Source of the DNA: Candidatus Sericytochromatia bacterium
GTDB lineage: Bacteria; Cyanobacteriota; Sericytochromatia; S15B-MN24; JAQBPE01
Direction of reading: 5' to 3'
Assembly: GCA_035285325.1 (NCBI GenBank)
Contig: JAYKJB010000056.1
Span: forward strand, 1-47,161
Length of the DNA stretch: 47,161 nucleotides
The position numbers and the translations under genes are program-made. Within the stretch, counting starts at the first letter, position 1; each line of letters begins with the position of its first letter. Of this stretch, positions 3,446 to 44,176 are shown piece after piece. The notes beneath the pieces were generated by a model, which was not told where the DNA came from, did not search any database, and saw only the letters and a program-made list of their open reading frames with translations.

Positions 3446-3493
3446 GAGGCTGGCTGACTTGGCAGCTTGCCCGGTGGGTTGGGTGCCGAAGCT

Positions 3494-4819
3494 GTGACCG
3501 CAACGCTTCGGCAACTGGCCGCTTATCTCCGAAACACCCTGCCGCCTGGCCCCGAGGGGCTGGTGTGGTGGTTGACCTTGCTGGCCTCGCTCGGGGTGAC
3601 CTCGGTCATTCCCCTGCTGCCGCTTTACGCGAGGGACCAGGGGGCCGACCTGCAGGCCATCGGCTGGATGGCCGCGGCCTACCTGGCGACCAATCTGGTG
3701 TTTCTTTATGGGGCCGGGCGACTCTCCGATTGGCTGGGGCGGCGTCCGCTCATGGCGGTGGGTATGCTTACCTACGCCGCTTGTTCGCTGGGGTTCCTGC
3801 TCTGGCCCTCCGCGTTGGGCTTCATTGTCCTGCGTGGCATCGAAGGCATCGCGGCGGCCTGCTTTTTGCCGGCGGCCCTCGCCTACGTGGCTGACCGCTA
3901 TCCCATTTCCGAGCGGGGTCTGCGCATCAGCCAACTCGCGGTGGCGGAAAATCTCGGTCTGCTGCTCGGGCCTGCGTTCGGTGGGGCCGTCAAGACGGCC
4001 TTGGGGATGGGGGTGCTGTTCGCTTGCCTGGCGGTGATGTGCCTGATCGGCACGGCGCTGGTCTTTCGTCTCCCGGTCCCAGCGAAGCGGGAGGCTGACG
4101 TCCCTGTGCCGCCGGGGGCCCAGGGGACGCCTTCCCAGGCACCTGAGCAGCCGCCTGAGGCAACAGAGGCGAGCACCGTGACGCGGACGGGTGGGCCTTT
4201 GATGAGAAAAGGGCCGGGTTTGTGGCACTCGGTTCGCCCCTACCTGTTCGTGGGCATTTCCTGCCGGGCCGCGGCCGCAGGTTTTGCCCTCGGTTCCTAC
4301 CTGACCGTCTGGCCCCTGTTCATGGCCGCGCTGGGAGCCAGCGATTGGGATGTGTCGTTTTCGTGGACGGTGTTCGCGGTGCCGTCGCTGTTTCTGGGGC
4401 CGTTTGCGGGGCGCCTGATTGACCGCGTCGGTGGGGGCCGCCCGTTGCTGTGGGGCGCCCTGTTCTCGGGGTGCGTGGTCTGCTCTTATGCGTTCTGTGC
4501 GGATGTGTCGACCTTGTTGGCCTTTTGCGCGCTGGAAGGGGTCGGATTTGCCTTCGCGTACCCTGCGGCCAACACGTTGATGGTGCAGGCGGCCCCGGAA
4601 GCGATGCGTGGGCGGATGATCGGCGCTGTGACGGCCATCCGCACCCTCGGCACGCTGATCGGGGCGCTGCTGACCCCGATCTGGTATGCCCACGGCGCTC
4701 GCCCCACCTTCTTGGGGGTGGGCGTCGTCTTGCTGGTCGGTGCCGCGACTCTGGCCCTTTGCCTGGCCTTGGATCGGCGCCAAACGGTCTCCGCGGAGGG
4801 CGCGGGCGCGCCCGTTTGA
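3494..4819 (+). CDS. MFS-family transporter
   Basis: The product has about 441 residues with twelve hydrophobic segments in two six-helix halves. They are separated by a Pro/Glu/Thr-rich cytoplasmic loop at about 200-245. The MFS motif A (GRLSDWLGRRPLM) lies between helices 2 and 3, and a degenerate copy (GRLIDRVGGGRPLL) sits in the second half. It is most like drug or metabolite effluxers of the DHA1 type, but the substrate cannot be told. The start is uncertain: the GTG at 3494 is used here, while TTG codons at 3467 and 3479 are in frame and none has a clear ribosome site. No terminator was seen before the next promoter at 4905. Confidence 0.85.
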   Translation: MTATLRQLAAYLRNTLPPGPEGLVWWLTLLASLGVTSVIPLLPLYARDQGADLQAIGWMAAAYLATNLVFLYGAGRLSDWLGRRPLMAVGMLTYAACSLGFLLWPSALGFIVLRGIEGIAAACFLPAALAYVADRYPISERGLRISQLAVAENLGLLLGPAFGGAVKTALGMGVLFACLAVMCLIGTALVFRLPVPAKREADVPVPPGAQGTPSQAPEQPPEATEASTVTRTGGPLMRKGPGLWHSVRPYLFVGISCRAAAAGFALGSYLTVWPLFMAALGASDWDVSFSWTVFAVPSLFLGPFAGRLIDRVGGGRPLLWGALFSGCVVCSYAFCADVSTLLAFCALEGVGFAFAYPAANTLMVQAAPEAMRGRMIGAVTAIRTLGTLIGALLTPIWYAHGARPTFLGVGVVLLVGAATLALCLALDRRQTVSAEGAGAPV

Positions 4820-4904
4820 GCTCCGGAGTGGGCCATCTTGGTGAGCTGCGGATCGCCCTTCGGGCGCGGCCAGTGCTTCCTCACGAGAATTTCCGAGTGA
4901 ACAC

Positions 4905-4933
4905 TTTACTGACGTACTTAACCTTTTTATAAT
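4905..4933 (+). promoter_or_regulatory. Strong sigma-70-type promoter for the lipoprotein gene
   Basis: -35 TTTACT (4905-4910), 17-base spacer, perfect -10 TATAAT (4928-4933). It lies in one of the few AT-rich patches of the window and 40 bases upstream of the lipoprotein start, which has its own GGAGG. Confidence 0.85.
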
Positions 4934-4973
4934 ATATGCTTAAGCTTTACTTCTCTTTGCGTGGAGGTCCCCG

Positions 4974-5642
4974 ATGTCTCGTTGTCTGCTCGTGGCGCCC
5001 GTGTTGGCGGCCTCTTTGATGCTTGGAAGCCTGGCGGGTTGCGGAACCGCCGGCGCACCAGCGCTGCCCCGGCAGGCTTCGGCCGCCCCGGCCGCGGTCA
5101 AGCTGCAGGCCGCTGCCCGCAAGGAAACGCGGGCGCAGGCGGAGGCCCGGGCCAAGCGTTACATCGCCGAGTTCAACGAGACGGCCTGGCGCTCGATCAA
5201 CGCCCGCAGTGAGATGGTGCGCAAGATCGCGCGGACGGACTCCGATGCGGCCTACGATTTCCTGCTGCAGGAGATCGAGGATCTACAGGAGTTGCGCGGG
5301 GAGATGAAGAAGGTCACGGCTGCCGAGGCCGAGGAATATGAGGAGCTGCTGACGGAAGAACTCGATGAGATGACGCCGGATCAGCAGGTGGTCAAAGCCC
5401 GCGTGCGCAAGGCTGAATCGCTCTCGATGGACCTGGACGAGGTCACCATCCTGGAAGAGCAAGCCGCCGGCCCTTCGGCCCAGTGGGCGGGGAATGCCCG
5501 CGTGGGCAGCCGCAACCGGGTGCTCTCCGCCATTCAGGAAAGCAAGCTTTACCGCGCCGTGTCTCGTGCCTTCAAGAACACGCGGAAGAAGGTGCGTACG
5601 ATCCTGCGCAGCCTGTGCCGCAAGGTGCTGTGGTGCCGTTGA
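4974..5642 (+). CDS. Predicted lipoprotein with coiled-coil region, unknown function
   Basis: The product has 222 residues. The signal peptide ends in lipobox SLAGC, so Cys23 should be lipidated. Residues about 45-145 are strongly helical and highly charged (Lys/Arg then Glu-rich), probably a coiled coil. The C-terminal 40 residues are very basic and contain two further Cys (SLCRKVLWCR). GTGGAGG precedes the ATG by 7 bases. It is a monocistronic unit: a strong promoter at 4905-4933 and an intrinsic terminator at 5668-5687. High expression of a small charged lipoprotein fits a structural envelope role, but no family was recognised. Confidence 0.75.
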   Translation: MSRCLLVAPVLAASLMLGSLAGCGTAGAPALPRQASAAPAAVKLQAAARKETRAQAEARAKRYIAEFNETAWRSINARSEMVRKIARTDSDAAYDFLLQEIEDLQELRGEMKKVTAAEAEEYEELLTEELDEMTPDQQVVKARVRKAESLSMDLDEVTILEEQAAGPSAQWAGNARVGSRNRVLSAIQESKLYRAVSRAFKNTRKKVRTILRSLCRKVLWCR

Positions 5643-5667
5643 GCCCGGTCTTTCTCTGAGCCCGCGA

Positions 5668-5687
5668 CCCCGCTTCGGCGGGGTTTT
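5668..5687 (+). terminator. Rho-independent terminator
   Basis: Stem CCCCGC / GCGGGG with TTCG tetraloop (5668-5683), followed by TTTT. It is placed 26 bases after the lipoprotein stop codon. On the minus strand the U-run is missing, so it should not stop the convergent operon efficiently. Confidence 0.88.
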
Positions 5688-5711
5688 GGCTTTCATCGCG
5701 GCGGTCTCGGA

Positions 5712-6947
5712 TCAGGCGTCGGCGCTGGGCGCCTGACCGGCCCGGCGAAACCCCGGCACCCAGGCCAGCGCGATGGCCAGGGCCCCGATCGCCACGGCGT
5801 TCACGCGCAGCAGGGCAGCGGGCGCCAGATGCTCCGCCAGCATGCCGTAGACCCCGTATGACAGGGGGATCAGGCCGCTGCAGATGCTGGTCATCAGACC
5901 AAAGAACCGGCCGGCTTCGGCCGGTGGAATCCGCCCTTGGAACCAGGCGATCGTCACGACGTTGACCCCTCCCATGCAGAGGCCGGCCAGCGCCAGCGCG
6001 GCCAGATGCAGCGGAAAGCTGGGCCATTGCCCCATGGCGGCGATCGCCAGCGCCACCCCGGCAATGCCACCCGCCACCCACGGGAACGGTCGGCGGACGC
6101 GCAGCCGGGTGGCCAGGGCCAGTGCGGCGAGCAGCATGCCCAGCCCCAGCGCACCTTCCATCCAGCCCAGTCCCGCTGCGCCGACCTGAAAGACCTCCCG
6201 CGCGAAATAGGGCATGAACAGGATCACCGGCATGGTGAAGATGTTGACGGTGGCAAAGCACGTCAGCACACCGGCCACGGTGGGGTCCAGGCGCAGCAAG
6301 CGAAACCCGCCCCGGCTGGCGGCCAGGAAGGACTCGGCTGCGGGGCCCGGCGGGAGGCCCTGGCGAGGCAAACCGGCCAGCAGCAGCCCTGACAGCAAGA
6401 AACTGCCGGCGTTGAGGGCGAAGGCCCCCGCGCTGCCTGCTCCCGCCACCAGCAGGCCACCCAGCACGGGGCCTGCCAACGACGCGCCATGCTGGCTGCT
6501 CTCCATCCAGGAGGTGGCCCGCATCACCTGCGAGGACGACACGACGCTCGGCAAGGTGGCCAGGGCTGCGGGCGCGAAGAGGGTGGTCAGCGCGGACAGG
6601 CAGGCACTGGCCAGCAGGGCCACGGGAACGGTCAGGGCCCCGTGCCAGGCCAGCCAGGCCAGGGCCGCCACCACCCCGGCGCGCGCCAGGTCCGAGAGCA
6701 CCATCAGCCTGCGCCGTTCGACCCGATCCGCCAGGGTTCCGGCCAGCGGACCCAGCAAGACGGCCGGCAGGGTCGAGGCGATCAAGACGGCACCGGTCTG
6801 TGCCACCGAGCCGGTTTGCACCATGGTCCACCACATCAGCGCCAGCTGATGCAGGCGATCGCCCAGCTGGCTGACGGTGTGCGCCAGCCACAACTTCAGA
6901 AAACCGGGGGTGCGCAGCAGCGATGCGTCAGCGGGCGCGTCACTCAC
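5712..6947 (-). CDS. MFS exporter (EntS/MFS_3-like), last gene of the LuxE/LuxC operon
   Basis: The product has 411 residues and twelve membrane segments. Its N-terminal half resembles the EntS/DUF894 branch of MFS: FLKLWLAHTVSQLGDR, then a motif-A-like LAGTLADRVERRRLM. It is preferred here as an efflux permease for a small molecule. The GTG start at 6947 overlaps the TGA of the LuxC-PaaK gene (GTGA), so translation is coupled and the transporter belongs to the same pathway. The natural inference is that it exports the product of the upstream acid-activating and acid-reducing enzymes. There is no intrinsic terminator with a U-run after it; the hairpin at 5668-5683 reads correctly only on the other strand. 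Confidence 0.87.
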   Translation of the reverse strand: MSDAPADASLLRTPGFLKLWLAHTVSQLGDRLHQLALMWWTMVQTGSVAQTGAVLIASTLPAVLLGPLAGTLADRVERRRLMVLSDLARAGVVAALAWLAWHGALTVPVALLASACLSALTTLFAPAALATLPSVVSSSQVMRATSWMESSQHGASLAGPVLGGLLVAGAGSAGAFALNAGSFLLSGLLLAGLPRQGLPPGPAAESFLAASRGGFRLLRLDPTVAGVLTCFATVNIFTMPVILFMPYFAREVFQVGAAGLGWMEGALGLGMLLAALALATRLRVRRPFPWVAGGIAGVALAIAAMGQWPSFPLHLAALALAGLCMGGVNVVTIAWFQGRIPPAEAGRFFGLMTSICSGLIPLSYGVYGMLAEHLAPAALLRVNAVAIGALAIALAWVPGFRRAGQAPSADA

Positions 6948-9601
6948 GAGGGTTGCCGCCGGTCGATCACGCGAATGACCTTGCCCGTGCGCCCGACGCG
7001 CTCAAGCCCCCCGGCGGGGACGATTTCGAGCGACCAGTTCAGGGGGGCAAGGCCAGGAACTCGCGCCTCCAGGGAGCTTTTCAGGGCACCGATGACAGGG
7101 TCTTCCGCTGGCCTCGGCGCCAGGCTCTCCACGCGTACCGTCACGCGTGGGTCATCCGCCAGAATCAACTGCGGGCTGGCCGAAAAGGCCCCGTGTTCAG
7201 CCACCACCGCTTGAATTTCGCCGTAATTCAGGCGCGCGTCCGCCACGGAGACGAGGTCCTCGACCCGACCGGTGAGTTCGAAGCGAGGGGCCTGTGCACC
7301 GCAGGCACAGGGTTCCGGCAGCCAGCGCGCCAGGTCTCCCACGTGGTAGCGCAACAGCGGCATGACCCGTCGATTCAGGCTGGTGATGAGCACCTCGCCC
7401 ACCTTCCCGGCGGGGCAGGGCTGTCCCGTCTGCGGGTCCAGAATCTCCAGATAGACGTGGTCGTCGTGGACGTGGTGGACGTTGCCGGTGCAATGCGAAC
7501 AGGCATAGCCCATCGGGCCCGCATCCACCCCGCCATAGCCGATCGAGGCGATCCGCGTGATGCCCAGCGTCTCGCGCAGACGCTGGCGTTCGGAGGCATG
7601 AAAGGGCTCCCCGGCGTAGTAGACCTGCCGGATCGTGATGCCCTCGGGCGCCTTGGCGACCTCTGCCAACACGGCCTGCACGTAGGTAGACAGCCCCATG
7701 ACGGTGTCGATCTGGAACTGCCGCAAGCAGGTCAGGACGCTCTCGATGGGGGCGAAATGCGTCAGGGGGAAGGAGTTGGCCCCCACCAGCTCCAGCACCC
7801 GGTTGAGGCTCAGGAAGGAGCCGTAGAGGTCACCTGCAAAGAACAGATTGGCCACCTTTTGCCCGGGTCTGAGCCCGGCCATCCAGGCCCCCCGAGCGGC
7901 CCGCGCCATATCGGCCTCATAGTCGTCGTAGCCGTAGATGGACAGCTTGGGGTCACCACTGCTGCCGCCCGTGCGCAGCCAGTGCCCGCCGCCCTCAGGG
8001 GCCGGCGCACAGGTCAGCAGCGCATCTCCCGCCGGCGGGGTGTGGGCGACCAGATCCGCCTTGCGCAGCTGAGGCAAGGCCAGCCAATCGGTCTCGTCCT
8101 TCAGCGGGACCCCGGGCAGGCGGTCCCGCCAGTAAGGACTGTCCGGCAGAATGCTCTCCACCAGACGGCGCCGTCGCGCCCAGCTGGTGCGTTCCGCCTG
8201 TGTCCGGGTGACCAGAAAATGCCCATCGGGAAATTGCGTGCGCTCGGGGAGGTCGAGCGATATCCAGCGCACCAATTCGCCGAGGCCGTAGACGCCGTCG
8301 TGCGGTTCTCCGGGCGCCCCGCCGCTCATTTCGCCCGTGCGTGTCACCCGATGCACGCCGGCGGCCAGCAGCGCCTGAGCCAGTGGCCCGAGACGGGCGG
8401 GGGCCACGCGCAGCCCGACCGTCTGCAAGTAGGCCCGCCAGCGTGCCAGCTGGGGAATCGCCAGCGCCAGGTCTTGCACCGGCTTGATGGCAACCGTGCG
8501 ATAGAGCGGTGACAGCTCGAATTCGGGAGAGGGGTCGACCAGCATGGTCCAGCTTTGGGTCCTGCCGGGACGGGTCGGTACCACCAAGCGGGGGCCACCG
8601 AGCAGTTCTCGGGCGATCGCCAGTTCACGTTCCTTGGTGATCTCGGCCTTCTCATGGAGATCGAGCGTTCCCATCGGCAGCTCGTCCGCCAGGCGATCCA
8701 GGGCCTCGCTCAGGGCCGCGACGAAGCGCGGCGTGAGCGCGCCTTCCGGGTCCTCCAGGTAGATCGCCTGAGCGCTGGAACAGGCATTCTGATCCCAGAG
8801 CGCGACGTCTCGGGCGGCCTCCGCGGCGGCCTGCTGCAGACCGTCTCCTTGCAGGGTGTCTGCACCGAGCAGCGCCATCGACACCTTGGGCCCATAGGCA
8901 ATCAGGCGGGCCTGCGGGCCGAGGGACTGACGGTAGGTCGCTACCACCTCATCCCCCCCCCAGACCACGACGGCGTCCACTTCCTGCAGAAATTGAGGGT
9001 GCAGCGCCTCGCGCTCACCGCTCCAGCTCAGGACGGCCAGGGCGGAGCGCAGCAGGCCCTCCGGGTCGCAGTCCCGGAGCGTCTCGGCAAAGCGCAGCGG
9101 TAAGGTGGTGGCGGCGCTGGCGGCCTTGAGCAGGTTGACGTTGCGCGCCAGCAGGCCCTCGACCACGGACAGCACGCCGGTGGTCGAGACGTTGCCGCTG
9201 GCCACGTGGAGCACCACCCCGCGTGGGACGGCCCGTTGCAGCAGGGGACACCCCGCGCGGCGATGCCAGGTGTCGACGGCATCGGCCCGGCCCCATTCCG
9301 CCCGTAGCTTGCCTTCCAGAAACGGGCGCGTCAGCGCCAGGTGCAGGCCGGTGAGTTCGAGGGCGACCATCTCTCGAGAGAAGCCGATCTCACCCGGTAA
9401 AACCTCCAGCAAGCTGCCGTGCAGGGGGCCGCCAGGTACAAAGCGCTGCCCCACGCGTTCCAGGATGCCCAGCACGTCCTCGATCGGGACGGCCGCCACC
9501 GCCTCGCGAGCGGCTCGGGCTTCCCGCAACAGCTCGGCCACCCGCTCCGGGGTGAGGTGGCCACTCAGAGGACGACCAAAGGTCAGATGGGTTCGAGACA
9601 C
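6944..9601 (-). CDS. LuxC-type acyl reductase fused to a PaaK-type adenylate-forming domain
   Basis: The product has 885 residues in two full domains. Residues about 1-455 match LuxC acyl-CoA reductases, which reduce an activated acyl group to aldehyde with NADPH. The catalytic Cys lies in WDQNACSSAQ at about 274, and the region around PRGVVLHVASGNVSTTG matches the family. Residues about 460-885 match the phenylacetate-CoA ligase/PaaK family: a phosphate-binding loop TGGSSGDPKLSIYG at about 544-557, a YGGVDAGPMG motif, and Cys clusters CSHC and CAC. The GTG at 9601 was chosen because GAGGAA stands 7 bases before it; the frame is open to 9670. Upstream is luxE (95-base gap) and downstream the coupled MFS gene. 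LuxC is normally a free protein of about 480 residues, so this fusion is unusual. It suggests that one acid is adenylated or thioesterified in one domain and reduced in the other. Confidence 0.88.
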   Translation of the reverse strand: MSRTHLTFGRPLSGHLTPERVAELLREARAAREAVAAVPIEDVLGILERVGQRFVPGGPLHGSLLEVLPGEIGFSREMVALELTGLHLALTRPFLEGKLRAEWGRADAVDTWHRRAGCPLLQRAVPRGVVLHVASGNVSTTGVLSVVEGLLARNVNLLKAASAATTLPLRFAETLRDCDPEGLLRSALAVLSWSGEREALHPQFLQEVDAVVVWGGDEVVATYRQSLGPQARLIAYGPKVSMALLGADTLQGDGLQQAAAEAARDVALWDQNACSSAQAIYLEDPEGALTPRFVAALSEALDRLADELPMGTLDLHEKAEITKERELAIARELLGGPRLVVPTRPGRTQSWTMLVDPSPEFELSPLYRTVAIKPVQDLALAIPQLARWRAYLQTVGLRVAPARLGPLAQALLAAGVHRVTRTGEMSGGAPGEPHDGVYGLGELVRWISLDLPERTQFPDGHFLVTRTQAERTSWARRRRLVESILPDSPYWRDRLPGVPLKDETDWLALPQLRKADLVAHTPPAGDALLTCAPAPEGGGHWLRTGGSSGDPKLSIYGYDDYEADMARAARGAWMAGLRPGQKVANLFFAGDLYGSFLSLNRVLELVGANSFPLTHFAPIESVLTCLRQFQIDTVMGLSTYVQAVLAEVAKAPEGITIRQVYYAGEPFHASERQRLRETLGITRIASIGYGGVDAGPMGYACSHCTGNVHHVHDDHVYLEILDPQTGQPCPAGKVGEVLITSLNRRVMPLLRYHVGDLARWLPEPCACGAQAPRFELTGRVEDLVSVADARLNYGEIQAVVAEHGAFSASPQLILADDPRVTVRVESLAPRPAEDPVIGALKSSLEARVPGLAPLNWSLEIVPAGGLERVGRTGKVIRVIDRRQPS

Positions 9602-9696
9602 GGTGGGCTTCCTCGGGGGATGGGATGGCTGAGGTTCGCGGGGGGAGGCGAGAGAGGGACCGGTTCGCACGTACCGTCGCAGCGGCCAGGTCCGGT

Positions 9697-10833
9697 TCAG
9701 GAGAGCAACTGGGTGGCCTGAATGGCGCAGCCCTTATTTTTCTTGGTGCCGAGCCGGCCGTGCAGTTCGATCGTGGCGGTGTTGCGGCCACACGGGCAGC
9801 CGTGACGGCGGATGGCCAGGTCGCTGGTCAGCAGAGAAATAGCGGGCATGGAAAGCAGGTAGGGCGTCAGCAGGTTCAGAAAGCCGGCCTCCCCATCCGG
9901 GAGTGGGGCCAGGGTCTCGACATCGCGCACGATCGCCCGGGCGAAGTGCGACACGTGAAATCGATGCGCGGCGCACTCCAGGTAGGGTACGCCGTGTTCC
10001 ACCAGGCCGTAGCCGTCCCGCTGATTGGCTTCGGGAATGCCCAGGGCGGCGGCCACCTCCGCGCGGAAGACCTGTTTGGGAATGGCCTCCTGCTCATTTT
10101 TCTTCCACCCTCCACCGGTCAGCACCCAGCTGGCGGGGCCCAGGGCCAGAGGCGGCAGTCCTTGCTCGCGTCGCCACGCCAGCAGGCGGTGCAGGAATGC
10201 CGGAAAGCCGATGATGCGGACCGGCAAGCCTTCCTCGGCATAGGCCTCCAGACGGGCATTGGTCTGTGCCACATCGAAGGCCCAGTCCTGGGCCTCTTGG
10301 TTCCAGCGCAGCGCGTACCAGCAAGCCTGCACGGCCGTGAAACCGGTCATGTAGTGATCGGTGTAGGACGTGCCCCGCGTGCTGGCGTGAGCCGGGTCGT
10401 GCGCGAAGATCAGGTAGTTCACGGGCTGGTCGCGCTGCACCATTCCCATGGCCTCGAAACAGCGGTCCACCGTGGCCAGCCCGCGGGCGAGCGAGCCCTC
10501 ATCGAAGAAAATCTGACTCTTCTGTCCGGTGGTGCCGCTGCTCGTCAGCGTCAATTTCACGTCGTCGTGCGCCACCGAGAGCAGCTCGTGATGCTTGAGC
10601 GTGTTGACGAACAGCCAGGGCACCTGGGCCAGGTCTGCCGGCACGACGAGCGCCTCCGGTGAGAAGCCGTGGCGGGCACACAAGGCCTGGTAGAAGGGGC
10701 TGGCTGCCGCGTGATGGCGCACCGCCTCGCGCATGGCCCCAAGGAACAGGGCGTCTTTGCTGTCTGAAAGCTCGTAAGGTTCCGCGGCCGCCATCAAGGC
10801 GGTCAGTTGGGTGGATGCGGCAGGCGCTGACAT
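9697..10833 (-). CDS. luxE: LuxE-family acyl-protein synthetase
   Basis: The product has 378 residues, the normal LuxE length. The adenylation loop is LTSSGTTGQKSQIFF at about 95-110. A Cys in the KGCAIQATQLL tail (about residue 369) sits where LuxE enzymes carry the acyl-accepting Cys. LuxE activates a fatty acid with ATP, holds it as a thioester and hands it to LuxC for reduction to aldehyde. The next gene encodes LuxC, so the classic partner is present, but luxA, luxB and the LuxD thioesterase are absent. GAGGAG precedes the ATG by 7 bases. The 192-base gap upstream contains a possible leader peptide and hairpin. The acyl substrate is unknown and it need not be a long-chain fatty acid. Confidence 0.9.
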   Translation of the reverse strand: MSAPAASTQLTALMAAAEPYELSDSKDALFLGAMREAVRHHAAASPFYQALCARHGFSPEALVVPADLAQVPWLFVNTLKHHELLSVAHDDVKLTLTSSGTTGQKSQIFFDEGSLARGLATVDRCFEAMGMVQRDQPVNYLIFAHDPAHASTRGTSYTDHYMTGFTAVQACWYALRWNQEAQDWAFDVAQTNARLEAYAEEGLPVRIIGFPAFLHRLLAWRREQGLPPLALGPASWVLTGGGWKKNEQEAIPKQVFRAEVAAALGIPEANQRDGYGLVEHGVPYLECAAHRFHVSHFARAIVRDVETLAPLPDGEAGFLNLLTPYLLSMPAISLLTSDLAIRRHGCPCGRNTATIELHGRLGTKKNKGCAIQATQLLS

Positions 10834-10868
10834 CGTGGGCTCCTCTGGCCCTCATGATACCCGCCTGT

Positions 10869-10885
10869 GCGTCGGCTTCCGACGC
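10869..10885 (-). repeat. Perfect 7-bp hairpin in the luxE leader
   Basis: GCGTCGG and CCGACGC arms flank a 3-base loop, 36 bases upstream of the luxE ATG and 7 bases downstream of the stop of the seven-codon ORF. There is no U-run, so it is not a standard terminator. It may be an RNA processing, pausing or translational control element. Confidence 0.6.
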
Positions 10886-10892
10886 GATTCGC

Positions 10893-10916
10893 TCAGAACT
10901 TGGTCTTGCCGAACAT
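10893..10916 (-). CDS. Putative 7-residue leader peptide (MFGKTKF)
   Basis: A perfect GGAGG stands 8 bases before ATG at 10916, followed by six sense codons (Phe-Gly-Lys-Thr-Lys-Phe) and TGA at 10893. A second in-frame ATG at 10922 lies within the ribosome site and would be too close to it. The ORF lies in the only long gap of the GNAT/Lux operon and ends just before a hairpin. This is the layout of a regulatory leader, or possibly a tiny secreted or signalling peptide. A chance occurrence cannot be excluded from one genome. Confidence 0.35.
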   Translation of the reverse strand: MFGKTKF

Positions 10917-10967
10917 GCCCATTCCCTCCACTCTCCGCGCCACCCGGCGCCCACAAGAGGGAGGTCT

Positions 10968-10994
10968 GTTCCAAACGTTCCAAGCCGGTTCCAA
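10968..10994 (-). repeat. Three direct TTGGAAC repeats upstream of luxE
   Basis: On the plus strand GTTCCAA begins at 10968, 10977 and 10988, spacings of 9 and 11 bases. The repeats lie just after the stop of the PaaK-like gene and before the leader ORF. They could be a tandem operator or, less likely, ECF-type -35 boxes (GGAAC). No matching -10 element was found at 16-17 bases from any copy. Confidence 0.5.
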
Positions 10995-11025
10995 GCCCGG
11001 TTTCAATGGTTAATAAGGCGTTAAA

Positions 11026-12357
11026 TTACTCGTCCTGGGCGAGGGTCTCGTCGCGCACCCCCTGGAACTTGCCGGTCACGGAGACCCGTGGAATGCCGTT
11101 TTGCGGGTAGAGTTCCACACGCACGGGGGCCAGGCTGCCGGTTCCAATCAATCTGGCCAGGTCCGGTTTGCTGCGCAGCAAGGCCTCGGCCAGACGCTCG
11201 GCCAGGCCCGGGTCGGCCTCCGGTTCCAGCACCTCCACCCGCAGGCAGAGGACTTCTCGTCCGGCCTGGCGCTGTTTGACCAGCTGCACCGCCTGGCCCA
11301 CCGGGGCAACCGTGGCCAGGGCCGCCAGGGCCTCGGCCCGGGTCAGCGTGGCATATCCCAGGCGCAGGGCGTCGTCGGCGCGGCCGAGCAGGTCGAAGAC
11401 CGGGGTCTTGCGCCCACAGGGGCAGTCCGCACCGACCCAGCGCGCCCGGTCACCCACCCGGTAGCGGATCACGGGTTGCAGGTGGCGATCGAGGTTGGTG
11501 ACCAGCAACTCGCCAGGCTCTCCCGGGCCGACGGGCCCGCCATGGTCCGGATCGACGATTTCCAGCCAGACGTGGTCACTCAAGACGTGGTGGTGGCCTG
11601 GCGGACTGGCCGGGCAGGCGTGTCCCATCAAGCCGGAATCGACCGCGCCGTAGCCGGCGGAGGCGATCACCCGCACGCCCAGTTCCCGCACGAGGCGCTG
11701 GCGGTCTTCCGGATGCAGGTGTTCGCCTGCATAGAAAATCTTCTCGATGCGGGCGCCGCGGGCAGCGATCGCCGGCATCACCTGCAACAGGCGCGAGGGA
11801 AAGCCCACCAGCACGTTGAGCCCGAAGCGCGTCACGCCATCGGCCACCACCTCCGCGTCCGCCGAGGCCGTGTAGGGGAAGTTCAGACAGCCCATCGTTT
11901 CGAGCAGGCGATCCACGAATTTGAATGACGCGTACAGGCTGCCCGCGGCGAACAGGTTGGCGACGCGGTCCTCAGGAGCCAGACCGGCCGCCCGATACGT
12001 GCGGCTGAACAGCGGCATGGCCGCCGCGAACTCCGCGTGCGAGTAGATCGAGAACTTGGGGTCGCCGGTGCTTCCCCCACTGCGAAACACCAGCGCGTCG
12101 GTCAGCGGCCCCGTCAGGGCTTCGTGGGAACGGGGCGGGCTGGCGGCCACCCAGGTTGCCTTGTCGAGGGGGGCGAGATGAGCCAGCGTTGGCAGGCCCA
12201 GCGGCGTCCCCGCGGGACAATCGGCCAGGCGCGCGCGATACAGGGGGGCCTGCCGGGCTCGCGTGAGCAGGGCCCCCAGCCGGGTGTCGATCCAGCGCTC
12301 GCGAGCCTCTCGCTCCCAGCTCTCCACCGGATCGAAGGCGTCCACCGCGTCATTCAT
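11026..12357 (-). CDS. PaaK-like adenylate-forming enzyme (phenylacetate-CoA ligase family)
   Basis: The product has 443 residues. The ATP loop is SGGSTGDPKFSIY at about 93-105, followed by YGAVDSGLMG and the Cys motif CPCGRKTPVFDLLGR typical of PaaK/coenzyme F390 synthetase-like enzymes. The family adenylates a carboxylic acid and usually transfers it to CoA. It is clearly a paralogue of the C-terminal half of the LuxC fusion two genes on: the ANLF-AG-LY, YAGE and DHV-LEI-DP segments correspond in order, so a duplication preceded the fusion. Its ATG overlaps the end of the GNAT gene by 8 bases (ATGAATGA), implying translational coupling. Substrate unknown; aromatic or alkyl carboxylates are equally possible. 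Confidence 0.87.
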   Translation of the reverse strand: MNDAVDAFDPVESWEREARERWIDTRLGALLTRARQAPLYRARLADCPAGTPLGLPTLAHLAPLDKATWVAASPPRSHEALTGPLTDALVFRSGGSTGDPKFSIYSHAEFAAAMPLFSRTYRAAGLAPEDRVANLFAAGSLYASFKFVDRLLETMGCLNFPYTASADAEVVADGVTRFGLNVLVGFPSRLLQVMPAIAARGARIEKIFYAGEHLHPEDRQRLVRELGVRVIASAGYGAVDSGLMGHACPASPPGHHHVLSDHVWLEIVDPDHGGPVGPGEPGELLVTNLDRHLQPVIRYRVGDRARWVGADCPCGRKTPVFDLLGRADDALRLGYATLTRAEALAALATVAPVGQAVQLVKQRQAGREVLCLRVEVLEPEADPGLAERLAEALLRSKPDLARLIGTGSLAPVRVELYPQNGIPRVSVTGKFQGVRDETLAQDE

Positions 12358-13546
12358 CCGTGACGGGGTCTTGCATCTGCACGACCAGGTTGCGGAATTC
12401 GGTATTCATCAAATAGGCGTCCAGGAATTTGCGGTCGCGCGGGGTCAGTTGCACGTTCGAAAAGTTCAAGGGCAGGGTCGAGCGAGCAAAGATCAGGTAA
12501 TCGCTGCGCTGGTCACCGGTGTGGGCCATGCCGGGAAAGTAGGCACAGGGCAAAAACTCGGCTGACAGGGCCGCCCGCTGGTGGGTGGGTTCGTAGGCGC
12601 TGATCAGCACCTCCAGGTAGTCGATGCCGACGCTCCGCCCGGTTTCGAACACCATCTCGAACACGTGGGTGAGGTGCTGCACCTCCGCCCGGTCCACTTC
12701 CAGGGCCCGCAGCACCCCGTGGCCGTCCTTGCCGTCGTGGTTGACGAAGGCCTTGACCTGTCCGTGGTCGGCGATGAACAGGTGGGTGGGTTGATGGAAT
12801 GGGAAAAAATCCATCAGCAGTGAGCCTTGGGAGCGACATCGCATCAGCGCCTCGGGCACGAGCTCACCGCGTTCGACACGCAGGCGCAGCCGATCGCTGA
12901 TGGGCGTGATTTCAGCTGGTTCCAGCTCGTAGGAATCGCGCACGATCTCGTAGAAACCGGCCACCTCCGGGATCAAGCGTGGCGTGGGTCGGCGGGCGCC
13001 GAAGGCGTCCGGATGAAACAGCGCCTTCAGCCCGTGCGTCTCATAGTGCGTGGTCCGGTGGACATTGGGAAAGATGCCCAAGCTCATGAAGCCGAGTTTG
13101 CGCAGCAGCGCGTCGGGCCCCATGGTGCGCGTGCGGGTCGTCGCGTAGATCACGTCGCAGCAACGCGGTTCCCGGTACATCAGGTGTTCGATACCCAACC
13201 GGATCGAGGCTTCCGCCAGGCCATCCCGTCGCCAGGCCTGCTCGGTGGCCGCTGCAAAGACCTTGGCGTGTCGTTCCCGCAGGTCGAACTGGAAAATGAC
13301 CGAACTGACCAGTTGCCCCGCCTCGTGTTCCGCCACGATCCAAAGACAGGCTGGGTCCCTCAGGGCCTCTTCCCGCTGGGTGCGCAGGTTCACAATCGGC
13401 AGGGAATAGGTGCCCTGGTAGACCCGATGATACAGTTGCCAGATGGCTTCGGCGTCGTCTGGCCGGGCGCGCCGAAGTCGCACCGAGCGCCCACTTGGCA
13501 CCGCATGATGGGTCTCGATTTCCAAACTGGGCCAGTGTTCTGTCAT
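12350..13546 (-). CDS. Tandem GNAT-fold acyltransferase, first gene of the LuxE/LuxC operon
   Basis: The product has 398 residues and seems to hold two GNAT-like halves. The first (about residues 15-170) has VRLRRARPDDAEAIWQLYH and the family's closing LLRKLGFMSLGIFPN. The second (about 205-385) ends in a comparable LSAEFLPCAYFPGM segment. The second half lacks a clear acetyl-CoA loop and may be a scaffold. The ATG at 13546 lies seven bases after a perfect extended -10 box, so the mRNA probably begins with this codon (leaderless); an ATG at 13555 falls inside the -10 itself and is rejected. Overlap with the PaaK-like gene ties it to that pathway, where it could N- or O-acylate an intermediate such as an amino acid or amine. 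The precise activity is not known. Confidence 0.75.
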   Translation of the reverse strand: MTEHWPSLEIETHHAVPSGRSVRLRRARPDDAEAIWQLYHRVYQGTYSLPIVNLRTQREEALRDPACLWIVAEHEAGQLVSSVIFQFDLRERHAKVFAAATEQAWRRDGLAEASIRLGIEHLMYREPRCCDVIYATTRTRTMGPDALLRKLGFMSLGIFPNVHRTTHYETHGLKALFHPDAFGARRPTPRLIPEVAGFYEIVRDSYELEPAEITPISDRLRLRVERGELVPEALMRCRSQGSLLMDFFPFHQPTHLFIADHGQVKAFVNHDGKDGHGVLRALEVDRAEVQHLTHVFEMVFETGRSVGIDYLEVLISAYEPTHQRAALSAEFLPCAYFPGMAHTGDQRSDYLIFARSTLPLNFSNVQLTPRDRKFLDAYLMNTEFRNLVVQMQDPVTDE

Positions 13547-13553
13547 GGGCTGC

Positions 13554-13562
13554 ATTATAGCA
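13554..13562 (-). promoter_or_regulatory. Extended -10 promoter of the GNAT/PaaK/LuxE/LuxC/MFS operon
   Basis: The minus strand reads TGCTATAAT, a perfect TGn extension plus consensus TATAAT (13559-13554). No good -35 box exists at 17 bases, as is usual for extended -10 promoters. Seven bases separate the box from the ATG at 13546, so the predicted start of transcription coincides with the start codon. Confidence 0.75.
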
Positions 13563-13711
13563 GGGCCCTCGCAGCGTGCAGCGCCCCCCGTCTCCCCGCG
13601 TCCACGGACGATGGCCGCTCTCTTGACAGCACCCTGATGGGCCGGTGAGGGGTGAATTTCGGAGCGGTTCGGGTACAGTGGAAGCAGTTGTTGGATTGGC
13701 CCGATCTACCT

Positions 13712-14395
13712 ATGGCTCACCTACTCCGCCTCCCTCTCCAAGTGCCTTCCCTCGAGCGGCGTCCGGGCTGCGCGAGGCGCTCTTCGGTACGGAAGACTGC
13801 GCGACCTGGCTTCAGCTTGGTCGAGATGGCCGTGGTCATCACCATCGTCGGGACCTTGGCGGCCATTGCCATTCCCTCCTACCAGAGTTCTCAAGACAAG
13901 GCGCGCAACGCCGCCATGCAGGGGAACGTCAAAACCGTTGCCACCGCGCTGGTCCAGTACGCCGCCGAGAACGATGGCTCCTTCCCTCGCAGTCCGGACG
14001 CGCAGGACACCGACAGAGGGGCCGCGCCCTACTCCCCCAGTGCCATCGGTCTGGCCAACTACCTGGTGGGAGGAAGCCTGCCATCCAACCCCTGGTCGAC
14101 CATTGTCCAGGAGGAATTCACGGCGCCCAACGGGGCGCCCGTGGTCATCAATTCGGCCACAGAACTGGCGACCGAGGATGGTTTCGCCAAGCGACCGGGG
14201 TCCTACATCGGAAACGGCCAACTGCCCGTGGATGGGACGCCCCTCACGACGGATTGGGGCGTGTATCTGTACAGTCGCGATGCGGAGAACCAGGTCACGC
14301 TGCTCTACGGCATCGGCAAGAAACTGGACGATGCGATCGTGGCGGGCAGCCATGCCAACGAGACCGGCAACGCCGGCGGCGGTGGCGGTCCCTGA
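13712..14395 (+). CDS. Type IV pilin-like / pseudopilin protein
   Basis: The product has about 227 residues. The class III signal RPG/FSLVEMAVVITIVG is complete: Gly before the cleavage site, Phe at +1 and Glu at +5, followed by the hydrophobic helix ending AAIAIPSYQ. The head has PNG, GTPL and NPW turns and a Gly-rich tail (GGGGGP). Such proteins are processed by prepilin peptidase and assembled into type IV pili or type II secretion pseudopili. The prepilin leader is long (about 33 basic residues) if the ATG at 13712 is used, and no good ribosome site is seen; a GTG at 13652 is also in frame. No other pilus gene is near, so this is an orphan subunit. Confidence 0.85.
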   Translation: MAHLLRLPLQVPSLERRPGCARRSSVRKTARPGFSLVEMAVVITIVGTLAAIAIPSYQSSQDKARNAAMQGNVKTVATALVQYAAENDGSFPRSPDAQDTDRGAAPYSPSAIGLANYLVGGSLPSNPWSTIVQEEFTAPNGAPVVINSATELATEDGFAKRPGSYIGNGQLPVDGTPLTTDWGVYLYSRDAENQVTLLYGIGKKLDDAIVAGSHANETGNAGGGGGP

Positions 14396-14505
14396 AGGAC
14401 GCCCTGCGACGCCCCACCCCTGAACACTCCGACCAACGCCTGGAGGATGGGGTCACCTGCTGACCCCCACGCCTCCCACTCGGGGGCTGAACGCGGCGCC
14501 TTGTG

Positions 14506-14514
14506 TGGTATAGT
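14506..14514 (+). promoter_or_regulatory. Extended -10 promoter of the pyruvate dehydrogenase operon
   Basis: TGG followed by TATAGT (14509-14514) matches the TGn extended -10. A weak -35 CTGAAC lies 16 bases upstream. The start of pdhA is about 55 bases downstream of the predicted transcription start. Confidence 0.65.
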
Positions 14515-14576
14515 TGTCGCTTGCTCAGGCCCCACAAGTGGGATCCGGTCGCGGCGGGGCCTTCAGGAGATTCGTC

Positions 14577-15548
14577 ATGGATCGTGAATCGCGGCGCAAG
14601 CTGTACCGCCAGATGGTGCTCATCCGGCAGTTCGAAGAGAAGTGTGCCGAGCTGTATGCGGGGGCCCAGATTGGCGGCTTCCTGCACCTTTACATCGGGG
14701 AAGAGGCCGTGGCGGTGGGCGCCATCCACGCGTTGGGGCCTGACGACGACGTGGTGACCCATTACCGGGATCACGGCCACGCCCTCGCGCGGGGCATCGA
14801 GGCGGCTCCCTTGATGGCGGAACTGTGTGGCCGCGCGACCGGCGTCTGCAAGGGGCGAGGCGGCTCGATGCACCTGGCGGATATCAAGCGCCGGATGTGG
14901 GGCGGCTATGCCATCGTCGGGGGGCACCTGCCGGTGGCGGTGGGTCTTGCGCACGCCCATCAGTTCCGTCAGTCGGGTGGGGTCACCATGTGCTTCTTCG
15001 GGGATGCCGCCACCGACATCGGCGAGTTCCACGAAGCCATGAACTTTGCTCAACTCTGGCGCTTGCCGATCGTGTTCGTCTGTGAAAACAACCTGTACGG
15101 CATGGGCGTGCCGATCGCGATGAACTCCGCCATGCAACAGATTGTCGAGAAGGCGCGGGCTTATGGCATGCCGGCGGAACGCTGCGACGGCATGGACGTC
15201 GAAAACGTTCACGAAGTCGTTTCCGCGGCGGTGGCGCACGCGCGGGCCGGCCGGGGACCATTCTTTATTGAAGCGATGACCTACCGCTTCCGCGGCCATT
15301 CGATGGCGGACCCGGAACTGTACCGGGAGAAGGCGGAGGTCGAGGCCTGGAAGCAACGCGACCCGATCCAGACCTTCAAGGCCCGCCTGGTACGCGCCAA
15401 AGTGCTGAGCCAGAGTGCGGCCGACCAGCTGGAACGGGAGGTCTCCGAGGAAGTGGAAGCCGCCGCGCGCTTTGCGCTGGAGAGCCCCTTCCCCGATGAA
15501 TCCACCTTGTTCGACGACATCTACACGCCCGTTGGCGCCAGCGCCTAG
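14577..15548 (+). CDS. pdhA: Pyruvate dehydrogenase E1 component, alpha subunit
   Basis: The product has 323 residues, normal for the alpha subunit of the heterotetrameric E1. It binds thiamine diphosphate and magnesium and decarboxylates pyruvate. Visible are GRGGSMHL (about residue 98), the TPP motif GDAATDIGEFHEAMNFA running to VFVCENN (about 141-171), and the YRFRGHSMADPELYR segment before the C-terminus that carries the phosphorylation loop in eukaryotes. The ATG at 14577 has AGGAGA six bases upstream and was chosen over the TTG/GTG start at 14514. It is the first gene of the E1alpha-E1beta-E2-E3 operon. An acetoin dehydrogenase alpha subunit is the main alternative, but no acetoin accessory gene is present. 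Confidence 0.93.
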   Translation: MDRESRRKLYRQMVLIRQFEEKCAELYAGAQIGGFLHLYIGEEAVAVGAIHALGPDDDVVTHYRDHGHALARGIEAAPLMAELCGRATGVCKGRGGSMHLADIKRRMWGGYAIVGGHLPVAVGLAHAHQFRQSGGVTMCFFGDAATDIGEFHEAMNFAQLWRLPIVFVCENNLYGMGVPIAMNSAMQQIVEKARAYGMPAERCDGMDVENVHEVVSAAVAHARAGRGPFFIEAMTYRFRGHSMADPELYREKAEVEAWKQRDPIQTFKARLVRAKVLSQSAADQLEREVSEEVEAAARFALESPFPDESTLFDDIYTPVGASA

Positions 15549-15568
15549 GGCCTTTTGAGAGGCCATCC

Positions 15569-16537
15569 ATGCCAGTCATCACGTACCGCGAGGCGCTGCG
15601 TCAAGCCATCGCCGAGGAAATGCGTCGCGACCCTGCCGTCTGGATTCTGGGGCAGAACATCGCGGCTTATGGCGGCACCTATGCCGTCACCAAGGGGCTG
15701 TTCGATGAATTCGGCCCGGAGAGGGTCCGCGACACCCCGATCGCTGAAGCCGGTATCATCGGGCTGGCGGCCGGGTCGGCGATGGGGGGCACCCGCCCCA
15801 TCGCGGAAATCATGAGCATCAACTTCACGCTGGTCGCGATCGACCAGATCGTCAACCACGCGGCCAAGATGCGCCACATGTTCGGGGGCCAGTGGTCGGT
15901 GCCGATGGTGATTCGCACCTCCTCCGGCTACGGCATGCTGGCAGCCACCCACTCGCAGACGTTCGAGAACTGGTATGCCTACGTGCCGGGGCTCAAGGTC
16001 GTGATGCCGGCGACCCCCTACGACGCAAAGGGCATGCTCAAGGCCGCCATCCGCGATGCTGACCCCGTCATGTTCATCGAACACTCCAATCTGTACGGTC
16101 AGAAGGGAGAGGTTCCTGAAGGGGATTACACCGTGCCGCTCGACCGGGCCGAGATCAAACGGGCGGGAGACCAGGTGACGCTGGTCGCCTGGTCGAGCAT
16201 GCTCAAGCCTTGTCTCAATGTGGCCGAGACCTTGGCCCAACAGGGCGTCTCGGTCGAGGTCATCGACATGCGCGCCCTGCGTCCGCTCGACACGGCGACG
16301 GTGGTCCAATCCGTGAAGAAGACCAGCCGCTGCGTGGTGGTGGAAGAAGGCTGGCGCACGCTGGGCATCGGGGGGGAGATTGCCGCCCGGGTGTCCGAAG
16401 AGGCCTTCGATTGGCTGGATGCGCCGGTGGGGCGGGTCGCGGGCAAGGAGGTTCCGATGCCCTACGCCAAGAACCTGGAAAAGCTCTGCATCCCCAGCGA
16501 GGCGGACATTCTCGCCGCCTGTCGGGCGACGCTCTGA
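15569..16537 (+). CDS. pdhB: Pyruvate dehydrogenase E1 component, beta subunit
   Basis: The product has 322 residues. It completes the E1 heterotetramer and supplies the Glu that activates the TPP thiazolium. The N-terminal transketolase-like domain carries TYREALRQAIAEEMRRDP, then IAEAGIIGLAAGSAMGG and GQWSVPMVIRTSSG. The C-terminal domain has the EGDYTVPLDRAEIKRAGDQV linker and the VEEGWRTLGIGGEIAA tail. It starts 20 bases after pdhA with a GAGAGG ribosome site. Its presence beside lipoyl E2 and E3 genes makes oxidative acetyl-CoA supply to the citrate cycle likely; citrate synthase is encoded about 20 kb further on. Confidence 0.93.
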   Translation: MPVITYREALRQAIAEEMRRDPAVWILGQNIAAYGGTYAVTKGLFDEFGPERVRDTPIAEAGIIGLAAGSAMGGTRPIAEIMSINFTLVAIDQIVNHAAKMRHMFGGQWSVPMVIRTSSGYGMLAATHSQTFENWYAYVPGLKVVMPATPYDAKGMLKAAIRDADPVMFIEHSNLYGQKGEVPEGDYTVPLDRAEIKRAGDQVTLVAWSSMLKPCLNVAETLAQQGVSVEVIDMRALRPLDTATVVQSVKKTSRCVVVEEGWRTLGIGGEIAARVSEEAFDWLDAPVGRVAGKEVPMPYAKNLEKLCIPSEADILAACRATL

Positions 16538-16582
16538 ATTGGCGTCCCCCACGGCACTCGCGAATCCGTCTGGAGGTTGACG

Positions 16583-17914
16583 ATGGCAAGTAACATTTTG
16601 ATGCCCAAAATGGGCTACGACATGGAAGAAGGCAAGCTCCTGCGCTGGTTGAAAGCGGAGGGAGAGCCGGTCGCCAAGGGGGAGGCGGTGGCCGAGATCG
16701 AGACCGACAAGGTCGCGATCGAGATCGAGGCCTTCGCTGCGGGGACGCTCGCCAAGGTGCTGGTGGGACCCGGAGAAATGGCCAAAGTGGGCGCCCCGAT
16801 CGGGGTCATCGCGGAACCCGGTGAGAAAGTGGCGGATGTGGCCGCCTCGGCCGCGCCTGTCGCGCCATCAGCCGCCGCGGCTGCCGCGCCGGCCGTTGCC
16901 CCCGCTGCACCTGTCGCACCGACCTCGCCCCCTGCGCCGCCGGCGCCCCCCACCGGAGCCCCCTTGGCCTCGGTTGCTGCCCCGGCTCCCACATCGGCGC
17001 CGCAGGATGCCGGCGCGCGTCGATTCGCGTCTCCCCTGGCGCGCAAGGTGGCACGCGAGCGGGGCCTTGATCTGGGTTCTGTGGTGGGAACGGGGCCTGC
17101 GGGTCGCATCGTGCGCCGTGATGTCGAGGCGGCTCTGGCGGCTGCTCCCGCCGCTGTTGCCGGGGCGCCTGCCCCGTCGGTCGCGTCGGTCGCCCCGTCC
17201 GTTTCCCAGCCTGCGCCGCCCGTCGGACTGCCGGGACGCCGGGAGCCGCTGACGGGCATGCGCAAGGCGATCGCCCGGCGCATGGTCGAGTCGATGTCAC
17301 CGATTCCCCATTTCTACGTGACGATGGCCGTTTCCATGGACGCAGCCATGGCCCTGCGAGAGCAGATCAACGCGGGGCTTGAGAAGGCGGATCGCATTTC
17401 AGTCAATGACTTGGTGGTCAAGGCCTGTGCGGTGGCGCTGCGCAAGCAACCCCTCCTGAATGCTCGCTGGGACGAGGATGCGATCTTCCACCCGGCCGGC
17501 GTGGCCATCAGCGTGGCCGTGGCCTTGCCTGATGGCCTGATTGCGCCGGACATCCACGATGCCGATCTCAAGTCGGTCGGGGCGATCGGGCGAGAAATTC
17601 GGGAAAAAGCCCAGCGCGCCAAGAATGGCCAGCTGGCGCCGGACGAATATGGGCGTGGGACTTTCACCGTCAGCAACCTGGGCATGTTTGGCGTCGAGGC
17701 TTTCACGGCCATCGTGACGCCGCCGCAGAGTGCGGCGATCGCCGTGGGGGCGGTTCAAGCCGAACCGGTGGTGCGAGAGGGCGCGCTGGCCGTGGGCCAG
17801 GTGATGCGATTCACCGTCTCGGCGGACCACCGCATCACCGATGGCGCCGTCTCCGCTCAGTTCGCAGCGGAAGTGAAGCGTCTGCTCGAACATCCGCTTC
17901 AGTTGTTGGTGTGA
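16583..17914 (+). CDS. pdhC: Dihydrolipoamide acetyltransferase (E2) of pyruvate dehydrogenase
   Basis: The product has 443 residues. Residues 1-78 form one lipoyl domain with the lipoylated Lys at 43 (IETDKVAIEIE). About 80-145 is an Ala/Pro swinging linker. About 147-188 is the E1/E3-binding domain (ASPLARKVARERGLDLG), and a second Ala/Pro linker follows. About 215-443 is the catalytic acetyltransferase with DHRITDGA near 417. It forms the core of the complex and moves acetyl groups to CoA. The ATG at 16583 has GGAGG 7 bases upstream; a TTG two codons earlier overlaps that site. Lipoic acid must come from genes outside the window. A hairpin follows before lpdA. Confidence 0.94.
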   Translation: MASNILMPKMGYDMEEGKLLRWLKAEGEPVAKGEAVAEIETDKVAIEIEAFAAGTLAKVLVGPGEMAKVGAPIGVIAEPGEKVADVAASAAPVAPSAAAAAAPAVAPAAPVAPTSPPAPPAPPTGAPLASVAAPAPTSAPQDAGARRFASPLARKVARERGLDLGSVVGTGPAGRIVRRDVEAALAAAPAAVAGAPAPSVASVAPSVSQPAPPVGLPGRREPLTGMRKAIARRMVESMSPIPHFYVTMAVSMDAAMALREQINAGLEKADRISVNDLVVKACAVALRKQPLLNARWDEDAIFHPAGVAISVAVALPDGLIAPDIHDADLKSVGAIGREIREKAQRAKNGQLAPDEYGRGTFTVSNLGMFGVEAFTAIVTPPQSAAIAVGAVQAEPVVREGALAVGQVMRFTVSADHRITDGAVSAQFAAEVKRLLEHPLQLLV

Positions 17915-17927
17915 CGGCATCCCCGTG

Positions 17928-17952
17928 GGCGCCCGCCTTCCGGCAGGGCGCC
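17928..17952 (+). repeat. GC-rich hairpin between pdhC and lpdA
   Basis: GGCGCCC-GCC / GGC-A-GGGCGCC with a TTCC loop forms a 10-bp stem with one bulged A. There is no U-run. Within a four-gene operon it could protect the upstream mRNA, or partly reduce E3 relative to E1/E2. Confidence 0.55.
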
Positions 17953-17987
17953 TCGCGGTGTGACCGGTTTCAGGGAGTGCAAGTGAC

Positions 17988-40771: not shown

Positions 40772-40789
40772 CGACACCAGGGCCTGCCT

Positions 40790-41404
40790 TCAATCGACCT
40801 CGCCTGGCGGCGAGACCTCCAGCAGGGGACGCAGCAGGCGGGCGGGCACGCCTCCGATGAGACTGCCGGGTGGGTAGGAGCGAGTCACGACGGCACCGGC
40901 GGCGACCACGCTGCCTTCGCCCAGTGAGACCCCCTTGACGATCGTCACGCCGCTTCCGAGCCAGACGTTGCGTCCGATGTGGACGGCCGCCAGGCGGTAA
41001 CCCTGGGCTCGGTAAGGAGTGCCTTCGGGCGAGAAGGCGTGGTCGTGGTCCCGGATGGACACGCCCTCGGCAATCAGGCAGTCGTCCCCGATCTCGACGC
41101 CATGCAAGGCACTGATCGTGCACCACGGGCCGATATGCACGTTCTGTCCGACCTGAATGCGGCTGCCGGGGTCGGCTTTGAACTCGCAGCCACGTCGTAG
41201 CACGCTGCCGGCACCGAAGCTCACCTCGGTGTTGGGCGCCAGGCGCCAGAGAACGCCGGCTTCGACCTTGACACTGTCGGGCAGGCGCAGGCCGGGGTGT
41301 CGCCGCAGGAGCAGCGCCCGCTGGCTGCGCGAGCGCCAGTGGACCAATCGCTCATCCCAGCGCCCCAGGGTGCTGAGCAGGCGGATGGGGAGACTGGTTG
41401 TCAT
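40790..41404 (-). CDS. Hexapeptide-repeat acyltransferase (WbbJ/LacA type)
   Basis: The product has 204 residues. Residues about 60-190 are left-handed beta-helix with hexapeptide repeats of the form [LIV]-G-x4 (IQVGQNVHIGPWCTI, VEIGDDCLIAEGVSI, VHIGRNVWLGSGVTI). The loop IRDHDHAFSP has the typical catalytic-site His. O-acetyl- or acyl-CoA donors are usual; the acceptor is likely a sugar of the glycan made by this operon. ATG at 41404 is one base beyond the TGA of the GT4 gene, so coupling is very likely. Confidence 0.9.
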   Translation of the reverse strand: MTTSLPIRLLSTLGRWDERLVHWRSRSQRALLLRRHPGLRLPDSVKVEAGVLWRLAPNTEVSFGAGSVLRRGCEFKADPGSRIQVGQNVHIGPWCTISALHGVEIGDDCLIAEGVSIRDHDHAFSPEGTPYRAQGYRLAAVHIGRNVWLGSGVTIVKGVSLGEGSVVAAGAVVTRSYPPGSLIGGVPARLLRPLLEVSPPGEVD

Positions 41405-41405
41405 G

Positions 41406-44160: not shown

Positions 44161-44176
44161 GGTGACCTCCCTTTCC

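Follow-up and report, generated by a model that had tools for sequence, protein, structure and literature searches.

A luciferase-free LuxE/LuxC-PaaK gene cassette of a Sericytochromatia genome as a candidate route to a small exported aldehyde

Overview of the cassette

Analysis of contig JAYKJB010000056.1 of a Candidatus Sericytochromatia bacterium (assembly GCA_035285325.1; the whole stretch of 47,161 nucleotides is termed the window) revealed a cassette of five genes, encoding a tandem-GNAT acyltransferase, a stand-alone PaaK-like adenylating ligase, a LuxE-family acyl-protein synthetase, a fusion of LuxC with a second PaaK-like ligase and an MFS exporter, which very probably constitutes a self-contained route for the biosynthesis and export of a small aldehyde, independent of non-ribosomal peptide synthetases (NRPS). 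By analogy with described pathways, the best candidate for its product would be an N-acylated amino-acid, dipeptide or tripeptide aldehyde that follows the logic of leupeptin, a reading given a probability of about 0.45; that the product is of peptide or amino-acid type at all is likewise rated at somewhat below even odds. Such a product would probably be a protease inhibitor, or else a signal formed from the aldehyde by cyclisation. As the set recurs in three unrelated phyla, the cassette represents a real small-molecule pathway. It is apparently undescribed, as neither a description of the five-gene set nor a described cluster with exactly these genes was found in the literature searched, most subscription papers being outside that search.

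Aldehydes are reactive warheads and signals, and searches for modular synthetases would miss a compact cassette of this kind, which, being shared by a cyanobacterial lineage without photosynthesis, Streptomyces and plasmids of Salmonella, would offer a transferable route to them. As the cassette is short enough for whole expression in a laboratory host, the question of its product is directly testable.

Conservation and distribution of the gene set

Comparison was made with samples of 18 genomes of the same class and 386 genomes of the phylum Cyanobacteriota (relatives labelled G001 to G010). LuxE orthologs were identified in 9 of the 18 class genomes, eight of which also possess a GNAT ortholog, with an additional genome (G009) carrying the fusion and exporter genes on a short contig. 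The full order of GNAT, PaaK, LuxE, fusion and MFS was found uninterrupted in four relatives from a basal cyanobacterial order (G003, G005, G006 and G007), with a gap between the PaaK and LuxE genes of 5-23 bp in G003, G006 and G007, and of 102 bp in G005, compared to 192 bp in the window. In G001, G008, G009 and G010 the components are spread over separate contigs. Those of G008 break off within the fusion. The set of G001, the nearest relative, is broken between PaaK and LuxE, matching the place of the gap in the window; its GNAT-PaaK part adjoins pyruvate dehydrogenase genes, the same flank as in the window, while its LuxE-fusion-MFS part (with a contig break inside the fusion) adjoins genes of the window's other flank. 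The halves of the set can thus live apart, the genes being scattered in G010, where the fusion is separate from GNAT-PaaK-LuxE, and partly so in G001, but they are together in most relatives.

All cassette genes were found to be under purifying selection, with ratios of non-synonymous to synonymous substitution (dN/dS) of 0.13-0.23 for every gene in the single close pair tested (G005/G008). In the phylum sample, LuxE had matches below E 1e-20 in only three further genomes, all of them weak. A scan of GTDB genome contigs for the fusion yielded a single distant PaaK-like locus. No photosystem I genes were identified in the genome of the window.

Outside the phylum, six plasmid records were found to cover 80-91% of the fusion, with LuxE, second PaaK and GNAT sequence adjoining (two of the six belong to one S. 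cattleyicolor strain, and one of these two was read). All five families, with related LuxE and fusion proteins, lie side by side on three Streptomyces plasmids (NBC_00158, S. cattleyicolor and BHT-5-2) in the order PaaK, MFS, GNAT, LuxE and fusion, with three of the four junctions in Streptomyces NBC_00158 being 4-nt overlaps. Two conjugative plasmids of Salmonella enterica (CP053580, L059; CP054717, L060) possess the order LuxE, fusion, PaaK and GNAT, preceded upstream by a 121-aa MFS-like remnant (judged by eye, without a Pfam hit). This Salmonella cluster seems to be decaying, because one of the two copies has a disrupted GNAT frame and two further plasmids carry only part of LuxE. Escherichia coli genomes contained nothing close to the Salmonella copy, and no relative of the GNAT was found in phages. 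The co-occurrence of the five families, put forward in a preliminary description of this DNA as something for neighbourhood analysis, was borne out: with its order shared by four relatives and its families present again in two other phyla, the gene set is far beyond chance.

A tree of 24 PaaK domains separated the stand-alone from the fused forms exactly (support 100/99), with members of all three phyla in both clades, and the grouping of these domains by phylum (Streptomyces and Salmonella forms held together) was weakly rejected (approximately unbiased test, p-AU 0.036). Because the PaaK domains divide by role and not by phylum, they point to an ancient joint set of two ligases, which had probably diverged from each other by the time of the last ancestor shared by these clusters. 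The divergent fusion of G002 was omitted from this tree; an earlier tree, with long outgroup branches, placed it among the stand-alone forms. In this divergent copy, the place of the tandem GNAT and PaaK beside LuxE is taken by a protein (L051:11011-12270) that matches HATPase and GNAT weakly.

Enzyme families and active sites

The LuxC portion of the fusion (PF05893; 289 bits against a cut-off of 21, E 7e-86) and LuxE (PF04443; 132.6 bits against a cut-off of 24.9, E 2e-38) were assigned with Pfam. The preliminary description had noted a catalytic cysteine in LuxC and a C-terminal cysteine in LuxE, and both residues were located by alignment with the cysteines of the Photobacterium LuxC-LuxE complex 7xc6, as Cys274 of LuxC (in WDQNACSS) and Cys369 of LuxE (in GCAI, C-terminal), each being invariant in the aligned relatives. 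The cassette shares with luxCDABE the adenylation and acyl-cysteine function of LuxE and the cysteine and reductase fold of LuxC, but differs in having no luxA, luxB or luxD, in the fusion of LuxC to a PaaK ligase, and in an extra PaaK, a GNAT and an MFS protein. Scores against the NCBIfam equivalogs were far under cut-off, with LuxE at 114 of 550 bits, LuxC at 134 of 750 bits and the two PaaK domains at 65 and 104 bits for TIGR02155 (cut-off 646 bits), indicating that these proteins are relatives, and not orthologs, of the luminescence LuxE and LuxC and of phenylacetate-CoA ligase. The earlier view that light production is not the purpose of the set stands: luxA, luxB and luxD were not found beside it, and the one luciferase-fold LLM gene of the genome lies on another contig.

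In both PaaK domains the A3 (glycine-rich), RYxxGD and C-terminal GK motifs are retained (in the stand-alone ligase, SGGSTGDPK at residue 93 and GK at 429-430), and given these motifs both should adenylate acids. In the AlphaFold model of the fusion, one half matched PaaK-fold ligases and the other LuxC, the domain limits being approximately residues 1-450 for LuxC and 455-885 for the second ligase. The nearest solved PaaK-fold relatives of both domains are phenylacetate-CoA ligases and the benzoxazole ligases NatL2, ClxA and AjiA1; these last three resemble both domains in fold and adenylation motifs, but have no known association with LuxC/LuxE and are only ~20-21% identical to the fusion model. 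The nearest NCBIfam families were BagE/FevW, FlxY and PaaK, all far under cut-off.

Pfam Acetyltransf_1 covers one half of the GNAT only, with a second GNAT-like half visible in its AlphaFold model, which agrees with its initial designation as a tandem GNAT. The best fold matches of this model include the tandem GNATs 2wpw (clavulanic-pathway) and 9en3 (histidine acetyltransferase), with amino-acid-like acceptors. The MFS protein falls in an H+-antiporter group with EntS and Mef.

Proposed pathway and comparison with known systems

With strong support from family membership, LuxE is predicted to adenylate a carboxylic acid with ATP and to bind it through a thioester at Cys369. The acyl group would then pass to Cys274 in the LuxC half, where NAD(P)H-dependent reduction would give an aldehyde, and the MFS protein would export the product. 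The two PaaK-like enzymes may each activate a different acid for coupling to an amine or hydroxyl group, as PaaK-family ligases do in benzoxazole pathways, and the tandem GNAT may cap an amino group from an acyl-CoA. Two adenylating ligases and one acyltransferase correspond to what is needed for an amine cap and two bonds before reduction, suggesting a leupeptin-type logic; no acyl carrier protein (ACP), ketosynthase or glycosyltransferase is present among the five genes. The chemistry initially proposed holds in part, for activation, reduction and export, which are backed by family membership.

Li et al. reportedly described, in 2020, an NRPS-free leupeptin pathway of Klebsiella and Photorhabdus. 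Leupeptin is made in both genera without an NRPS by leupABCD and an adjacent transporter (PMC8283571, PMC11480411), with leupABCD spanning 5,831 bp in Klebsiella (PMC8283571). The likeness to the cassette would presumably lie in the use of separate enzymes to cap, to form the bonds and to reduce the C-terminus, in an adjacent transporter and in a similar total length. Should leupA-D belong to these families, the cassette would join the leupeptin pathways; otherwise it would be a distinct type of pathway. Small peptide aldehydes in general possess an N-acyl cap and a reduced C-terminus, and the livipeptin cluster (S. lividans plasmid SLP3), with a predicted acylated peptide aldehyde as product, likewise combines an N-acyltransferase with reductive release (PMC10548850), but its machinery is an A-PCP-R NRPS together with a tRNA-dependent transferase, in place of LuxE, LuxC and PaaK.

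A possible ribosomal analogue was identified on a Streptomyces europaeiscabiei plasmid (NZ_CP109155.1; L062:3025-12142), where a YcaO protein, an MBL hydrolase and an MbnB/TglH-type (DUF692) iron enzyme are found with LuxE and LuxC. Directly downstream is a 53-aa open reading frame (ORF) with four (D/N)(E/D)FPFR repeats, which reads like the ribosomal precursor of an FPF-argininal; this ORF was not found in any other plasmid record. The plasmid LuxE falls in the same clade as the cassette LuxE, in a tree with long outgroup branches that was used only for the node of the Streptomyces, Salmonella and ribosomal-peptide proteins (support 80/93). The occurrence of LuxE and LuxC of this clade in a YcaO/MNIO ribosomal-peptide cluster makes peptides a plausible substrate for the cassette. 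It is possible, if doubtful, that LuxE/LuxC is a general C-terminal carboxylate reductase acting on amino acids or peptides, in an ancient and widespread NRPS-free class with PaaK-GNAT and ribosomal branches; if so, protease-inhibiting aldehydes would be made without modular synthetases and would be overlooked by searches for those.

A number of points weigh against an acylated amino-acid or peptide aldehyde. The ribosomal analogy depends on a single plasmid and on the LuxE node, with its support of only 80/93. The published primer for leupA starts ATGAAGATAGCGATTCACAAC (PMC8283571) and matches no gene start in the cassette, so the leup genes may be unrelated. The model of the GNAT is of moderate confidence (predicted local distance difference test, pLDDT, 68) and its fold match is weak (full-length template modelling score, TM, 0.34). 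In addition, the CoA-binding motif of its first half (RRDGLA), although intact in the window, has degenerated in the majority of close relatives, making GNAT activity less than certain.

Alternative explanations

The strongest competitor to the peptide-type aldehyde, although itself unlikely, is an aryl-derived aldehyde, ester, amide or benzoxazole-like product, in which the PaaK pair would adenylate aromatic acids in the manner of NatL2, ClxA, AjiA1 or EhpF, the GNAT would acylate an aromatic amine and LuxE/LuxC would reduce an aryl carboxylate, a step of the kind that has been proposed for EhpF/EhpG in phenazine biosynthesis. In the biosynthesis of griseoluteic-acid phenazines, the adenylating enzyme EhpF and the aldehyde-dehydrogenase-like EhpG reduce a carboxylate; they are separate genes of a phenazine cluster, without a GNAT or a second ligase. 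An aromatic substrate is in keeping with the solved and NCBIfam relatives of the PaaK domains described above (EhpF being a weaker match), but the PaaK-fold likeness is at family level only, and chorismate or aminobenzoate enzymes were absent from the set and its surroundings in the genomes read.

A further proposal, clearly less probable than the aryl one, is that a fatty or hydroxy acid is converted to an aldehyde for a surface glycan, flagellin or lipid, as with RfbN of Vibrio cholerae or the flagellin-glycosylation sets of enterobacteria. LuxC/LuxE without luciferase do occur in flagellin-modification islands (PMC4875605), and the annotation of RfbN combines an acyl protein synthase with an acyl-CoA reductase (PMC11264103). 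A second LuxE-LuxC locus of the same genome (C36, L055:498-5213), with overlapping genes for an ACP-like small ORF (by eye), an SDR protein, an AMP ligase, LuxE and LuxC, has this make-up and looks like an ordinary representative of the kind. However, such sets come with ACP, SDR and sugar context and lack the combination of GNAT, PaaK and MFS, and it is the absence of ACP, SDR and sugar genes (and of a ketosynthase) from the cassette that disfavours a surface glycan; the flanks also vary between genomes, the set has a dedicated MFS exporter, and its LuxE is only 27% identical to that of C36. Nor was any ketosynthase, ACP or dehydratase of an arylpolyene or other fatty acid synthase/polyketide synthase system found in the five genes or their neighbours (Pfam and translations of 3467-19361). 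Members of the PaaK and GNAT families often serve in catabolism, but a role in acid catabolism or detoxification through CoA activation and acetylation is improbable given that the catalytic cysteines of LuxE and LuxC are strictly kept and an exporter is part of the set. Least probable is that these genes are independent neighbours and not a system; the split set of G010, the break in G001 and the 192-bp gap would fit this, but it is contradicted by occurrence in three phyla in different gene orders and the joint phylogeny of the two PaaK forms.

Gene layout and neighbouring features

The five genes were found in the order, on the strand and with the 8-base and GTGA overlaps first described (Table 1).

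Table 1. Coordinates of cassette genes and associated features (window positions, or positions within the L-labelled locus).
Feature	Position	Strand	Basis
Tandem-GNAT acyltransferase, 401 aa	12350..13555	(-)	Pfam Acetyltransf_1 + AlphaFold model
Stand-alone PaaK-like adenylating ligase, 443 aa	11026..12357	(-)	Pfam AMP-binding
PaaK/LuxE gap, 192 bp	10834..11025	(-)	
LuxE-family acyl-protein synthetase, 378 aa	9697..10833	(-)	Pfam LuxE, Cys369 kept
LuxC-PaaK fusion, 885 aa from GTG 9601	6944..9601	(-)	Pfam LuxC + AMP-binding
MFS exporter, 411 aa	5712..6947	(-)	Pfam MFS_1
Protease/inhibitor neighbours	L045:13794-14966; L051:6101-7147; L057:11516-12493; L058:12016-13383		

The longest ORF of the fusion is 908 aa with its start at 9670, but the GTG at 9601 is most likely the true start, since it coincides with the start of the fusion in relatives. 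With this start the spacing between LuxE and the fusion is 95 bp, and together with the 192-bp gap this restricts overlap coupling to the two end junctions (8 nt for GNAT/PaaK and 4 nt for fusion/MFS). The neighbours at 3467-5642 and 13652-19361 read the opposite way, leaving the five genes alone on their own strand. The five genes first proposed as an operon are conserved as a unit and are likely to form one, but the 192-bp gap, where the set of G001 is broken, makes a single transcript less certain. A TATAAT sequence at 13554-13559 overlaps the first ATG of the GNAT gene, which makes the second ATG (13546) a candidate for the actual start, possibly of a leaderless transcript. Rfam and sigma-70 scans of the five-gene region gave no matches, and terminator-like matches there were no more than in shuffled sequence.

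Elsewhere in the window, a polysaccharide-type run was noted from translations only (39242-45667), consisting of flippase-like, acyltransferase, glycosyltransferase, radical-SAM-like and UDP-glucose dehydrogenase genes. Proteases or protease inhibitors were found beside four copies of the cassette, namely two C39-like peptidases, one trypsin and three I36 inhibitors; these neighbours are suggestive of a protease-inhibitor product, but could be due to chance.

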